Part shown: positions 37,709 to 41,695 of the stretch, one piece after another
Layout: every line of letters begins with the position of its first letter
Numbering within the stretch: the first letter of the stretch is position 1
NCBI GenBank assembly: GCA_035631035.1
Contig: DASQJL010000012.1
Coordinates: forward strand, 1 to 46,489
Source of the DNA: Candidatus Binatia bacterium
GTDB lineage: Bacteria > Eisenbacteria > RBG-16-71-46 > SZUA-252
DNA length: 46,489 bases
Reading direction: 5' to 3'
Position numbers and translations under genes: made by a program
Notes under the pieces: generated by a model
Seen by the model: only the letters and a program-made list of their open reading frames with translations
The model's database searches: none
What the model was told of the DNA's origin: nothing

Positions 37709-39580
37709 ATGAAGAGATTACTAGGCCTCGTCGCAATCATGGCGCTCGTGGCTTCCGTGATGCCCGGCATCGGGTACGCGGGATACCGCGGCGCGTTCGA
37801 CCCGATCGGTCGAGGCGACATCCCCGCCGCCGATGGCGTAGTGTTCGGGAACGGGCTCTCCAATGGCGAGCAGACTCCCGTCGCCCGCCCCGTGCCGGTA
37901 GGCGTAGGCAACGGCGTCGCCCTCATGGAGCGTTGGGTGTCGTTTACCACGCGCGACCAGGTGGTGGGATTCGAGGGTTCGCGTGAAATCTGGCAGATGT
38001 TCAATCGCACCCAGCCGGGAACCCTGGTCGCCACGATCGCTGAAGCGCGCTCGAAGGTCCTGGGCGATCCGACGGGCGTGATCTCCTACATCGATCCGAA
38101 GTGGAGCCCGAACGGCAAGTACCTCGCGTACGTCCTTTCGGACACCCACGTCACGGCGAGCCACATCGTCGTCCAGGAGTTCACGGTCAGCACCAACATG
38201 TTCACGTCGATCACGCCGGTCGGCGCTCCGATCGAAGTCACGCCGGCCGTGGCTGGCGTGCGTGATCGTCACCCCGATTGGAGCCCGGACGGCAACTCGC
38301 TCGTGTTCGACTCCGATCGCACCGGCCTTTCCGATGACATCTACACCGCCACCGTGTTCCCGACGGTCGGCGCCGCGGTCCGCCACACGTTCGTGGACAA
38401 TCGTGCCGAGCAGAACCCGGCGTGGTGCCCGGACGGCAGCAATCGCGTCGCGTACGATACGAACCGGTTCGGCCCGAACGTCATCGAGATCGTGGATCTC
38501 GACACCGACGCCGTGAGCCTGGCCGAGACGAACTTCGCCTCCGTGTCCCACAACCACCCGGGCTGGAGCAGCGACGGCGGCTCGATCTATTACGACGCTC
38601 CTGAGAGCGAAGACTCCCAGCAGAACCCGGACATCTGGAAGATCGACCTGGCCTCGCAGGCCAAGTGCCCGATCCACATGGACGGCGCCGGTGACGTGAA
38701 CGTCAACGTTTCGCGTTACCTGAACCACACGGCGGACGGCCTCCCGTACAACGACATCTACTACGAGTCGCAGGCGTTCGGCTTCGCGCCTGGCATCGTG
38801 GTCTGGCGCGCGAACCCCGTCCAGAGCTGCTTCAGCCCGCTCCCGATGGCGGTCGAGTTCAGCCCGCAGACGATCAACCTCGACAATCCGAACGGCAAGA
38901 GCAACAACGTCGACAAGATCACCGTGACGCTTTCGTTCCCGCCCGAGACGCAGGCTGCCGGCTACCAGTGCCTGTCGTTCAACGGACCGCGCGAAGGTGT
39001 CCGCATGCGTTCGAACGCGGTCTTCCCGAGCCCGACGCTGTTCGGCTCGCTCCGCGCATATGACCCCGAGGGCGATGCACTTCCCAACGGCCCTGGCCCT
39101 GGCGGCACGTTCAACGACAACCCGTCGCAGGGGACGATTGCCGTGTACTTCAACGCCCGCAGCGTGCAGACGCGCCTCGTGGCGCTTGGACTGGTCAATC
39201 AGAACGTCGCGGTCCGGTGCGACGCTTATTCGAACATCGTCGGCCGCACGTTCCGCGGTTTCGGTCTGATCCATCTCTCGGGCGCCAGCTTGGCGGCCTC
39301 GACGGTGAAGCTCGAGCAGAACTCGCCGAACCCGTTCAACCCGGTCACCAAGATCCGCTTCGCGGTTGCCAAGGATTCCAAGGTTGCGCTGCGCGTGTAC
39401 AACGTGCGTGGCCAGCTGGTGAAGACGCTCGCGAACGGGACGATGGCGCAGGGCATGCACGAAGTGAGCTGGGACGGCCGTGATGCCGGCGGCAGCCACG
39501 TTGCTTCGGGCGTCTATTACGCCAAGGTCGCGGCGGATGGTGGAACGACGGACGTGATCAAGATGGTGATGGCGAAGTAA
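37709..39580 (+). CDS. Secreted TolB-like beta-propeller protein with C-terminal sorting domain
   Basis: 623 residues. The signal peptide is MKRLLGLVAIMALVASVMPG ending near GIGYA. At least four PD40/TolB-type blades are visible: DPKWSPNGKYLAYV, HPDWSPDGNSLVFDSDRTG, NPAWCPDGSNRVAYDTNRFG and HPGWSSDGGSIYYDAPESE. A beta-rich linker follows, and then a textbook sorting domain (QNSPNPFNPVTKIRFAVA ... YNVRGQLVKTLANG ... SWDGRDAGGSHVASGVYYAK). Propellers of this kind bind proteins or polysaccharide at the cell surface or in the periplasm; no partner is identifiable. The gene has its own strong promoter, a long leader, a GAGGAG site eight bases before the ATG and an intrinsic terminator, so it is a monocistronic, probably highly expressed unit. 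Its codons are slightly less GC-extreme than its neighbours'. Confidence 0.92.
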   Translation: MKRLLGLVAIMALVASVMPGIGYAGYRGAFDPIGRGDIPAADGVVFGNGLSNGEQTPVARPVPVGVGNGVALMERWVSFTTRDQVVGFEGSREIWQMFNRTQPGTLVATIAEARSKVLGDPTGVISYIDPKWSPNGKYLAYVLSDTHVTASHIVVQEFTVSTNMFTSITPVGAPIEVTPAVAGVRDRHPDWSPDGNSLVFDSDRTGLSDDIYTATVFPTVGAAVRHTFVDNRAEQNPAWCPDGSNRVAYDTNRFGPNVIEIVDLDTDAVSLAETNFASVSHNHPGWSSDGGSIYYDAPESEDSQQNPDIWKIDLASQAKCPIHMDGAGDVNVNVSRYLNHTADGLPYNDIYYESQAFGFAPGIVVWRANPVQSCFSPLPMAVEFSPQTINLDNPNGKSNNVDKITVTLSFPPETQAAGYQCLSFNGPREGVRMRSNAVFPSPTLFGSLRAYDPEGDALPNGPGPGGTFNDNPSQGTIAVYFNARSVQTRLVALGLVNQNVAVRCDAYSNIVGRTFRGFGLIHLSGASLAASTVKLEQNSPNPFNPVTKIRFAVAKDSKVALRVYNVRGQLVKTLANGTMAQGMHEVSWDGRDAGGSHVASGVYYAKVAADGGTTDVIKMVMAK

Positions 39581-39602
39581 TCGCCTTCACATCGCAGCAA
39601 CA

Positions 39603-39645
39603 AGAGGCCGCGGGGCCAAAAGCTCCGCGGCCTCTTCGTTTGTGT
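39603..39645 (+). terminator. Rho-independent terminator of the 37709 gene
   Basis: A perfect 11-bp stem (AGAGGCCGCGG with CCGCGGCCTCT, 39603-39613 and 39625-39635) with an 11-base loop, followed by TCGTTTGTGT. It begins 23 bases after the stop codon. Confidence 0.9.
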
Positions 39646-39753
39646 CATGACAGGTCTGGCGGGCCAAGCACCTGCGCCTAGGTTGGCCGAGGACCGGGAC
39701 GGGGCGAGCGGCTGGGCGGGCTTGGTTGAATGGCGCTCGGCAATCTGATGAGC

Positions 39754-39841
39754 GCCTGGGCCGCTGGACGGGGCTGAGCGCCGGGCCTGGGCAGCTTGGC
39801 GGGGCTGAGCGCCGCCTGGGCAGCTTGGCGGGGCTGAGCGC
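39754..39841. repeat. Minisatellite, about 30-bp unit, three copies
   Basis: Three copies beginning with GCCTGGG at 39754, 39785 and 39814 share GCCTGGGCAGCTTGGCGGGG and CTGAGCGC. Degenerate half-copies flank them on both sides. Confidence 0.8.
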
Positions 39842-39967
39842 ATGGCTGATGGGAGCCTGGGCTTGCCGAGCGCCTGGAACGGACCGGTGGCCGCCTCCGT
39901 GGCTCTGGCTCCGACGCCGGCAACGGCCGCGAGCTCGGACGCGCCGCCCTGGCCTGCTTCCGTCCTG

Positions 39968-39990
39968 GCGCCCTTCGGGGAAAGCGGCTC
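39968..39990 (+). repeat. Partial copy of the two-hairpin dispersed repeat
   Basis: GCGCCCTTCGGGGAAAGCGG matches the first half (UUCG hairpin and AAAGCGGC) of the full copies at 41027 and 41375. The AACTCG palindrome half is absent. Confidence 0.5.
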
Positions 39991-40359
39991 CTTGCCCATT
40001 CCAATGAATGACAGGATGTCACACGAAAGAGCGCGGCGCGCGAGCCGGATCGGGAACTTCATGAAGCGGCGCGGCGCGCGAGCCGGGAACTTCATGAAGC
40101 AGCGGTTTCCCTTTCGGCCGCTCCATGAAAACATGGCCGCGGCGGGCGTGCCGGCAGTTCCTCCGGAGCTGAAGTGCCGTCCACGACGACAGGTGTCGCT
40201 GATTTTCACCGCTGCTAGCGAGTGTGAAACCGGCGACATCTGCCGCCCTGGATGACAGCTATGCGAGTTCCTCCTGCAGGTAGTTGCATCCTCAAACACC
40301 CCATCTTCTAAGACACCATCCTCAAGGACCCTGGCCGAGGTTTTCCGCAGCCGGGAGAA

Positions 40360-40764
40360 TCAGGCTCCCTTCGCGGCCCAGGCGAGCTGGACGAGCTGAA
40401 TCAGATTCCCGCAGGTATCGTCGAGGATGGCGATGACGGAGCCGGTCGTGGGAGTGACGGTCTGCGTGAACTTCACGCCTCTTGCCGCCAGTCGATCATG
40501 CTCCGCCTGGACGTCGCTGACGAGGAACTGAGCGGCGGGCCGGCCCTGGGCCCGCACCGCCTCCTGATATGCCTTCCCCGCCGGGTTCGCATTCGATTCC
40601 AGGAGCAACTCAACCCCATCCGGATCCTCCGGCGACACCACCGTCAGCCAACGATAGTTCCCCTGAGAGAAATCCGCCTTCTTCTGGAAGCCGAGCGCTT
40701 CCGTATAGAACTGAAGCGCCTTCGCCTGATCGCTGACGTAGATGGTCGTCCACTGGATGCGCAT
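40360..40764 (-). CDS. VOC-superfamily (glyoxalase/bleomycin-resistance-like) protein
   Basis: 134 residues in the vicinal-oxygen-chelate fold: two beta-alpha-beta-beta-beta modules, the first starting IQWTTIYVSDQAKALQFYTE with ALGFQKKADFS, the second at QFLVSDVQAEHDRLAARGVK. PDGVELLLE and GNLIQLVQL correspond to the strands that usually carry metal ligands. The best strand residues are E and Q rather than a clear H/E set, so metal binding is uncertain. The ATG at 40764 has AGGAGG five bases upstream. The family includes small-molecule-modifying and drug-binding proteins; the substrate is unknown. It stands alone in repeat-rich DNA between converging transcription units, and may be a recent arrival. 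Confidence 0.88.
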   Translation of the reverse strand: MRIQWTTIYVSDQAKALQFYTEALGFQKKADFSQGNYRWLTVVSPEDPDGVELLLESNANPAGKAYQEAVRAQGRPAAQFLVSDVQAEHDRLAARGVKFTQTVTPTTGSVIAILDDTCGNLIQLVQLAWAAKGA

Positions 40765-40879
40765 GGGGTCCTCCTATTCCCGGACGGGGCGGCGTCACGC
40801 CGCCGGCTCGTTCATCGAGTCGTCCATGAGTCTGGTGAGGAAGGGACGATCATGACAAGCGATGATTGGGAGGGCGGCG

Positions 40880-41021
40880 CTGCGTCGGTTGGGCCGATTG
40901 GAGACGGCCCTGCGTCGATTGCGCCGATTGGGGGATGGCCCTGCGTCGATTGCGCCGATTGGGGATGGCGCTGGCGTCGATTGCGCCGATTTCGGGGCGT
41001 GGCGCTGCGTCGATTGGGATC
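40880..41021. repeat. Minisatellite, 30-34-bp unit, five copies
   Basis: Copies start at 40880, 40910, 40941, 40971 and 41005 with the core CTGCGTCGATTGCGCCGATT. The period is 30-34 bases, so reading frame is not conserved between copies, which argues against a coding repeat. Confidence 0.85.
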
Positions 41022-41026
41022 ACCCG

Positions 41027-41082
41027 CTCCCTTCGGGGAAAGCGGCAACTCGCCCCGGGGCGAGTTAATATAAATATTAGTG
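41027..41082 (+). repeat. Dispersed two-hairpin repeat, full copy
   Basis: The first hairpin is TCCC-TTCG-GGGA (a UUCG tetraloop, 41028-41039). AAGCGGC follows, then a perfect 20-base palindrome AACTCGCCCCGGGGCGAGTT (41047-41066), then an AT-rich tail (AATATAAATATTAG). It is matched on the opposite strand at 41375-41435. Confidence 0.7.
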
Positions 41083-41107
41083 GCCGCCCCACGGCCTCCG
41101 GAACCGG

Positions 41108-41198
41108 CGGGCGCGACGAGCGGGCGCCGCGAGGGGGGCGCCACGAGCGGGCGCCACGAGCGGGCGCCACGAGCGGGCGCGGCGAGGGGCGCGACGAG
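41108..41198. repeat. Minisatellite, 13-bp unit, seven copies
   Basis: Seven contiguous units of CGGGCGCCACGAG or one- to three-base variants; the third unit is 14 bases. GC content is close to 80-85 percent. Confidence 0.85.
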
Positions 41199-41374
41199 GT
41201 CGCCCTCGCGGCCTGGGCACCTTCGCTGTGCGTGCCCGTGCCTAGCAACTCGTCCGTGGACGAGTCGGCGATTTCACCGACCCGGAACACCTTGTTAACG
41301 CAACCTCCCGTGGTCGTCTCGGTGGAATCCGAGGAGGAGCGCCACGGCAAAGCGGCGCCTTGTCGCAGCATCTT

Positions 41375-41435
41375 TGGGCATTAATCCTTACCTTAACTCG
41401 GCCTGGGACGAGTTGCCGCTCTCCCCGAAGGGGCG
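41375..41435 (-). repeat. Dispersed two-hairpin repeat, inverted full copy
   Basis: On the minus strand it reads CCCCTTCGGGGAGAGCGGC, then the imperfect palindrome AACTCGTCCCAGGCCGAGTT (41414-41395), then AAGGTAAGGATTAA. It is nearly identical in order and spacing to the copy at 41027. Confidence 0.7.
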
Positions 41436-41632
41436 TTGGTCGCTGCCTACGGGCTAGGCGGTTGGGCGTTGCCGAGGGGCCGGGCCGACGGGGCGGGCCG
41501 ACGGCGTGCGCACGCGGTCCAGTCGGAGCGTCGACAACGCCTCCTACCTAGAGAGTCTCCGATGAGCGCGGCCCAGGGTCAGCGCCGTGCGGTCTTCTGA
41601 CATCCGACGGGGCAACCTATGCGGACTGCAAA

Positions 41633-41670
41633 CCGAAAGCCCGCCGGGTTGCTTACCCGACGGGCTTCGG
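41633..41670 (-). terminator. Terminator of the 41696 lipoprotein gene
   Basis: Stem CCGAAGCCCG.CGGG with CCCG.CGGGC.TTCGG, one mismatch and one bulge, loop TAAGCAA on the minus strand, followed by a short T tract (GGTTTGC). It lies 26 bases after the lipoprotein stop and is nearly symmetrical. Confidence 0.75.
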
Positions 41671-41695
41671 TGTTACGACTTGCTGGCTCTACAGC

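Follow-up and report, generated by a model that had tools for sequence, protein, structure and literature searches.

Dispersed 20-bp palindromes in an Eisenbacteria genome and their predicted pairing with a multi-copy HTH-HNH protein family

The window analysed here, a contig of 46,489 nt from an Eisenbacteria genome, contains several related inverted elements between 39968 and 41435. The original prediction described them as a dispersed repeat built from a UUCG hairpin and an AACTCG palindrome, either REP/BIME-like or MITE-like. This locus raises the question of which part of the element is dispersed in the genome, and of which enzyme is its partner.

Local and dispersed parts of the repeat

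Both full copies, one on each strand, were present where claimed. Direct reading and a repeat search paired them into an inverted repeat of 57 nt (41029-41085 and 41376-41432), 82% complementary with 290 nt between the arms. The half copy was also confirmed by the repeat search, which found 39968-39997 to be 87% identical to 41026-41055. On the plus strand, the UUCG arm CCCTTCGGGGAAAGCGGC (41029-41046) is followed by the perfect 20-bp palindrome AACTCGCCCCGGGGCGAGTT (41047-41066, type AACTCG), which forms 10/10 pairs and was the top covariance-model match of the genome. Behind it lies the AT-rich tail AATATAAATATTA (41067-41079), which in doublets elsewhere is the spacer separating two inverted palindromes. 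The minus-strand copy contains an imperfect palindrome of the same AACTCG dispersed family (41395-41414; 8/10 pairs, covariance-model E 1.5e-8), adjoined by its AT-rich tail (41379-41394) and a UUCG arm (41415-41432). The half copy has an arm on the plus strand (39971-39988) with no palindrome behind it; both of these arms were located by pattern and repeat search. The lone related palindrome, AACTCGTCCGTGGACGAGTC, was read from the sequence at 41247-41266 and is of the AACTCG type without an AT-rich tail.

The palindrome-plus-TTAA pattern had two matches in the window and 0 in each of 100 shuffles, and the UUCG arm, allowing up to three mismatches, had five window matches, including three exact ones, where shuffling gave 1.29 on average. 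RNA folding of the plus copy was better than that of shuffles (z -2.26), while the minus copy (z 0.46) and the half copy (z 0.26) folded no better than shuffles. Rfam models at gathering scores had no match in the window, and a tRNA search found none. Other repeats crowd the same intergenic patch (39581-41695), with 30-31-nt units at 39753-39846 and 40869-41018 and, in the repeat search, 13-nt-spaced units at 41107-41193. A small ORF in the middle of the patch (40360-40764, minus strand) presumably encodes a VOC/glyoxalase-like protein, and we take the protein before it (37709-39580, plus strand) to end in a SPNPFNPVTKIRF-type sorting or Ig-like tail.

The genome searched was a 3.35-Mb draft of 135 contigs, 97% complete. 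The UUCG arm had three exact matches in it, all in the window, and eight more at two mismatches (2 for the reversed-pattern control). The arm together with the start of the palindrome had no match in 98 other genomes. The palindrome half, AACTCGCCCC/GGGGCGAGTT, with its AT-rich tail is a genome-wide family of dozens of copies. Because the arm was confined to the window whereas the palindrome half was found genome-wide, the composite of UUCG hairpin and palindrome is a local unit. The UUCG half is a local duplication, and the dispersed family consists of the palindrome and the AT-rich tail only. The original interpretation was partly supported. A MITE built from the UUCG unit was rejected, since the whole unit is not dispersed, and the arm stands outside any dispersed MITE because it does not accompany the palindrome family.

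The palindrome family and the REP/RAYT question

The genome-wide count showed that the palindrome half extends well beyond this locus. The palindrome pattern gave 9+16 matches in the own genome against 0+3 for the control, and a wider pattern gave 50/54 strand hits against 0/0; in a second genome, G005, the wider pattern gave 30/30 strand hits, also against 0/0. A covariance model built from 21 copies found at least 112 strand-matches at E ≤ 1 in the own genome, with 150 of 2861 candidates scored and with a single palindrome able to match on both strands. The copies are 20-bp palindromes without a loop, of the types AACTCG, AACTTG and AACATG, and their cores include GCCCC/GGGGC and GCGCC/GGCGC. 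Many have the AT-rich tail, either as the spacer of two inverted copies or in arrays (C57, C105, C36, C21). Pattern counts against control confined high site numbers to two genomes. A scan of the genome_contigs collection for palindrome plus tail returned 0, in a collection from which near records may be absent.

To describe the surroundings of the copies, 62 sites were derived from 64 covariance-model rows, the remaining rows being mostly the same sites on the opposite strand and the weak matches on C42, C96 and C54 being excluded; in five of the 62, the best 20-mer had only 6-7/10 pairs. As many as 52 of these sites were intergenic, though the loci are 88% coding. Ten sites fell inside called genes: six in HNH ORFs, two (C94) in a weak call, and two (C70, C78) that are probably one place, resembling two overlapping contig ends matched via the tail. 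Genes were predicted with a home-made codon caller, and orientation, counted by eye, was convergent at 12 of 21 loci, codirectional at 7 and divergent at 2. Compared with 19 convergent among 115 gene pairs, this shows a preference for convergent genes (Fisher p 2e-4). Because several copies are situated close to contig ends (C24, C36, C67, C70, C75, C78, C94, C105), further copies may be hidden by assembly breaks. Two other identities were considered and set aside: a C-terminus encoded by the AT-rich tail (NSPRGEL followed by a stop), since linker copies use a different frame, and an integron attC site, suggested by the AAC/GTT ends and dropped by eye.

The REP/BIME-like part of the prediction fits the anatomy of the palindrome half, which is intergenic, lies between convergent genes and forms inverted doublets. 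Excerpts of PMC3733652 describe REP/REPIN elements and RAYT (TnpA-REP) in like terms, as short intergenic palindromes in opposite-orientation doublets, some inside genes, at convergent and unidirectional gene ends, with a cognate chromosomal nuclease. However, the search for a RAYT-type transposase that the prediction proposed found none: Y1_Tnp (PF01797) matched in none of nine genomes of the taxonomic family f1, including the two richest in copies and the own draft, which at 97% completeness could miss a gene. Y1_Tnp genes occurred in 19/20 genomes of family f8, mostly with one match each, yet f8 has fewer palindrome copies. Around ten of these f8 genes (L112-L121) there was no perfect palindrome of the AACTCG-type family; three of the ten loci had looped AAC(G)GGAGC...GTT hairpins downstream. 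No GTAG/CGTC tag was seen by eye in the flanks of 45 rows, where flanks varied and GGC was commonest. The palindromes are therefore not REP elements in the defined sense, for want of both a Y1/RAYT-type transposase and the tag. Ordinary REP/REPIN elements moved by RAYT, as an explanation, are largely refuted and in our judgement very improbable. They would account for short intergenic palindromes and doublets with a convergent preference. The palindromes here are perfect and without a loop. The evidence points to another partner, an HTH-HNH nuclease family whose proteins seem to recognise double-stranded DNA and whose multi-copy genes hold the site inside.

HNH genes that carry the palindromes

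In relatives, the palindromes recurred inside one gene encoding an N-domain, a linker and an HNH domain. This family had eight matches in the own genome, eight in G005 and 0-23 in other genomes of the class. To examine the placement, a set was assembled from protein matches alone; of its 79 loci, both domains could be located in 63, and the 16 without such a linker were dropped. At least 9/10 pairs were required of a linker palindrome. Such palindromes were present in 26 of 31 Eisenbacteria genes, with 31 in 6,957 nt of linker against 0 in 23,162 nt of the same genes' domains, and 30 of the 31 stood in frame 1. The excess was weak in Myxococcota (2/9 genes; 2 in 2,088 nt against 4 in 7,143 nt of domains) and in Acidobacteria (3/10 genes; 3 in 2,544 nt against 4 in 7,374 nt), and none of 13 Deltaproteobacteria genes in this set had one. 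In a pool of 118 distinct genes, partly fetched through palindromes, there were 86 linker palindromes, whereas 200 codon shuffles averaged 2.3 and gave 7 at most, and 80 of 81 were in frame 1; the frame and covariation counts leave out four genes whose reading frame is interrupted. The 122 linker palindromes comprised 96 different sequences in which pairing was kept, with all four Watson-Crick pairs at positions 4 and 5 and pair 9-12 kept in 114. Sense-strand departures at pairs 2-9 were 10 G.T/T.G against 16 A.C/C.A, so there was no G-U leaning such as an mRNA hairpin would give.

Presence of the gene went with presence of the sites. Among genomes of the class, those with the gene had more sites than control in 22 of 30 cases (180 vs 32), and those without it in 1 of 17 (4 vs 12). 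Yet HNH copies are not always matched by dispersed sites, as G030 and G031 had 16 and 7 HNH matches and no pattern site. The own HNH linkers carry AACTCG (C81), AACTTG (C7) and AACATG (C32), which are the three main dispersed types of the own genome; no linker palindrome was found in the own gene on C2. In G005, the other of the two genomes compared, linkers carry AACTTG, AACCTG and AACTGG, and dispersed sites are mostly AACTTG, plus AACATG and AACCTG, with no AACTCG. With one query, HNH relatives were found on no PLSDB plasmid or INPHARED phage at 1e-5. A homing endonuclease whose own target is destroyed by gene insertion was rejected, for what appears to be the site lies unbroken within or next to the gene.

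The window contains a second palindrome family at 40186-40245, with core TTTCACCGCTGCTAGCGAGTGTGAAA (40204-40229), GACA..TGTC-like arms and a fold z of -4.85. It resembles the linker palindrome of the own HNH gene on C76 (43 identical positions, 53-nt-stretch alignment). A stop lies inside the match of that gene, which may be broken. In the sequence examined, further copies of this family were on C2, C11, C24 (two) and C102. Judged from sequence, the window very probably holds dispersed copies matching two of the own genome's HNH genes.

Outside Eisenbacteria, 9 of 34 loci had palindromes no more than 350 nt from the gene, three of them on both sides. There were six upstream (260-284 nt) and seven downstream, each within 0-350 nt, and none at 350-700 nt on either side; the flank criterion for these 34 genes was relaxed after a first look at the results. 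A TTGACA followed the palindrome by 36-59 nt in 6/6 upstream cases (L239, L216, L221, L226, L230, L247), and these six loci together have eight TTGACA in 29 kb. A scan with the AACTGGATT-type pattern found 16 sites in 6 of 15 other-phyla genomes (control 0), and an HNH gene adjoined such a site in 9 of 15 fetched loci.

The structure of one relative was modelled with a mean pLDDT of 84.6, the sole stretch below 50 being residues 148-180 in the linker. For the N-domain (residues 21-138), the 12 best structural rows were DNA-binding domains of ParB, Noc or Spo0J with Z 6.7-8.9, values that are middling for a helical domain and may reflect a common helix arrangement; these alignments covered about 100 residues at 8-10% identity, and KorB reached Z 5.7. 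Foldseek alone gave no match under E 0.001, and the best hit in a sequence search of solved structures had E 0.1. The modelled N-domain appears to resemble the site-binding domain of ParB/Noc. The C-domain (residues 247-330) matched McrA-type and other HNH nucleases with Z up to 6.3. It has invariant Cys, His and Asn columns, and at E ≤ 1 PF01844 (HNH) matched 31 of 37 proteins, the best at 1.7e-7. DUF222 matched weakly in 2/37 proteins (best E 2.8e-5) and in 0/9 of another set at E ≤ 0.01. The C81 protein alone had no match in a Pfam search; its only NCBIfam match, IscB, scored 21.8 bits against a cut-off of 175 and was rejected.

Predicted site recognition and its alternatives

Covariation between palindrome letters and protein residues was computed over 111 columns in 61 genes, the letter-residue partners having first been found in 55. 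The best partners were residue 69 for letter 4, residue 73 for letter 5 and residue 66 for letter 6, all three on the predicted recognition helix of the modelled N-domain. Corrected mutual information was 0.389, 0.265 and 0.344 for letters 4, 5 and 6, against a maximum of 0.175 in 100 shuffles, which do not keep relatedness; in none of the 100 did all three best columns fall within 64-76. Identity-controlled pair contrasts gave r 0.43, 0.50 and 0.74, and 0.49, 0.47 and 0.80 for closer pairs. At letter 4, T went with Y/F (33/39) and A with A/S (10/12); at letter 5, G with R (21/24) and T with Q (18/22); at letter 6, G with D (42/47) and T with Q/E (12/13). The HNH domain, used as control, was flat (mutual information 0.105, 0.116, 0.081; r 0.23, 0.12, 0.16), and on the re-run with this control letter 5 reached only 0.181, near the shuffle maximum. 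Letter 9 had its best partner off the predicted recognition helix, at residue 122 (0.313). The own genes on C68 (letter 4 G with S69) and C2 do not follow the code. Among nine held-out distant genes with flanking palindromes, letter 4 fitted 9/9, with T in all nine and with Y/F the commonest partner anyway, while letter 5 fitted 2/7 (G with R) and letter 6 fitted 1/9 (G with D). The code of letters 5 and 6 does not transfer to distant genes.

Taken with the placement in linkers and flanks and the apparently ParB/Noc-like modelled fold, the helix covariation with its flat HNH control makes it highly likely that the palindromes are double-stranded recognition sites of the HNH-family proteins. 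The protein-site pairing would thereby rest on several independent lines of computation. That the sites spread by nuclease-provoked copying, by analogy with REP/RAYT (PMC3733652) and with the gene conversion of REP13E12 (PMC13061034), is a possibility we rate at somewhat short of even chances. For the two combined, a predicted recognition-site family and its copying by the cognate HTH-HNH protein, we estimate a probability of roughly 60%. The protein would be a multi-copy chromosomal one with an N-terminal ParB/Noc-like helix-turn-helix, a disordered linker and a C-terminal HNH nuclease domain. A dimer would bind the palindrome through its HTH domains, and the HNH domain might nick or cut the DNA close by, possibly within the AT-rich spacer of paired sites. 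Repair could then copy sites from place to place, and dozens of solo and paired sites would accumulate where tolerated, mainly between convergent genes. More tentative and, on balance, doubtful is a new selfish system of nuclease and site, in which the genes of a ParB-like-HTH/HNH family carry their own intact palindrome within the coding sequence or in their flanks, protein and site co-diversify, and break-provoked copying spreads the sites. The TTGACA motifs downstream of the six upstream palindromes lower the odds of both the combined explanation and the selfish system.

Those motifs would also suit proteins that bind the sites for regulation, including autoregulation, or for nucleoid organisation, as Noc, ParB and KorB do, with no nuclease copying. 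The modelled fold appears to be that of the site-binding domains of these very proteins, and a palindrome within the gene could act as a roadblock. We consider this reading a serious alternative, though a less likely one, since the 12 convergent loci of the own genome lie away from promoters, the tandem arrays and the doublets sharing an AT-rich spacer look copied, and only two genomes have large site numbers. Transcription terminators or other RNA hairpins would explain why GC-rich stems stand between convergent genes, close to where genes end, but no T run follows the stem, pairing reaches the centre (pair 9-12), and the G-U leaning is missing. Moreover, a 3.35-Mb genome has only dozens of sites, and the window lacks an Rfam match, so that this explanation has a very small probability. 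The near-constant reading frame of the linker palindromes would be expected if the palindrome in the gene arose as a side effect of encoding a conserved peptide (Q-L-A-P-G-R-V) with GC-rich codons and had no relation to the dispersed copies. Against this, the residues vary with base pairing (L/H/P at the second position, R/Q/H/P/T/I towards the end), the structural model leaves this stretch disordered, codon shuffles fall far below the observed count, and the letters covary with the N-domain, all of which leaves such a side effect scarcely credible.

The predicted recognition of the palindromes by HTH-HNH proteins has counterparts among known systems. Excerpts of PMC7383237 describe parS and NBS sites as 16 bp long and attribute specificity to a small number of residues in the helix-turn-helix region. 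ParB/parS, Noc/NBS and KorB/operator (PMC7383237) are alike in palindromic sites of similar size and in the small number of specificity residues, and apparently in the modelled N-domain fold. Unlike in these systems, an HNH domain here replaces the CTPase and dimerisation domains, the palindrome letters vary from gene to gene, and sites lie inside coding sequence. Rickettsia palindromic elements, in the part of PMC3733652 that treats them, are palindromes inside ORFs of many gene kinds, whereas those described here cluster in a single gene family, and the encoded protein apparently recognises them. The REP13E12 regions of Mycobacterium are presented, in sections of a preprint (PMC13061034), as gene-conversion hotspots without a defined function. 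These DUF222-HNH repeats (PMC13061034, PMC10589994, in excerpts) are likewise multi-copy chromosomal HNH gene repeats, and DUF222 is the domain matched weakly above. In a literature search, mostly judged without full texts, we recognised no publication on such palindromes with HNH genes.

To our knowledge, a single class of partner enzyme is known for REP-like palindromes. The helix that changes in step with the palindrome letters suggests, from sequence comparison, that a nuclease is paired with dispersed copies of the site it is predicted to bind, an arrangement not yet described. This is evidence for a partner unrelated to RAYT, in phyla where genetics is scarce, and its protein-DNA letter code was derived from sequence alone. 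What a multi-copy HNH family does, and perhaps what the mycobacterial 13E12 repeats do, becomes testable. Should the weak DUF222 connection prove sound, the putative selfish system would give a mechanism both for the 13E12 repeats, so far without an explanation, and for how often they undergo gene conversion.
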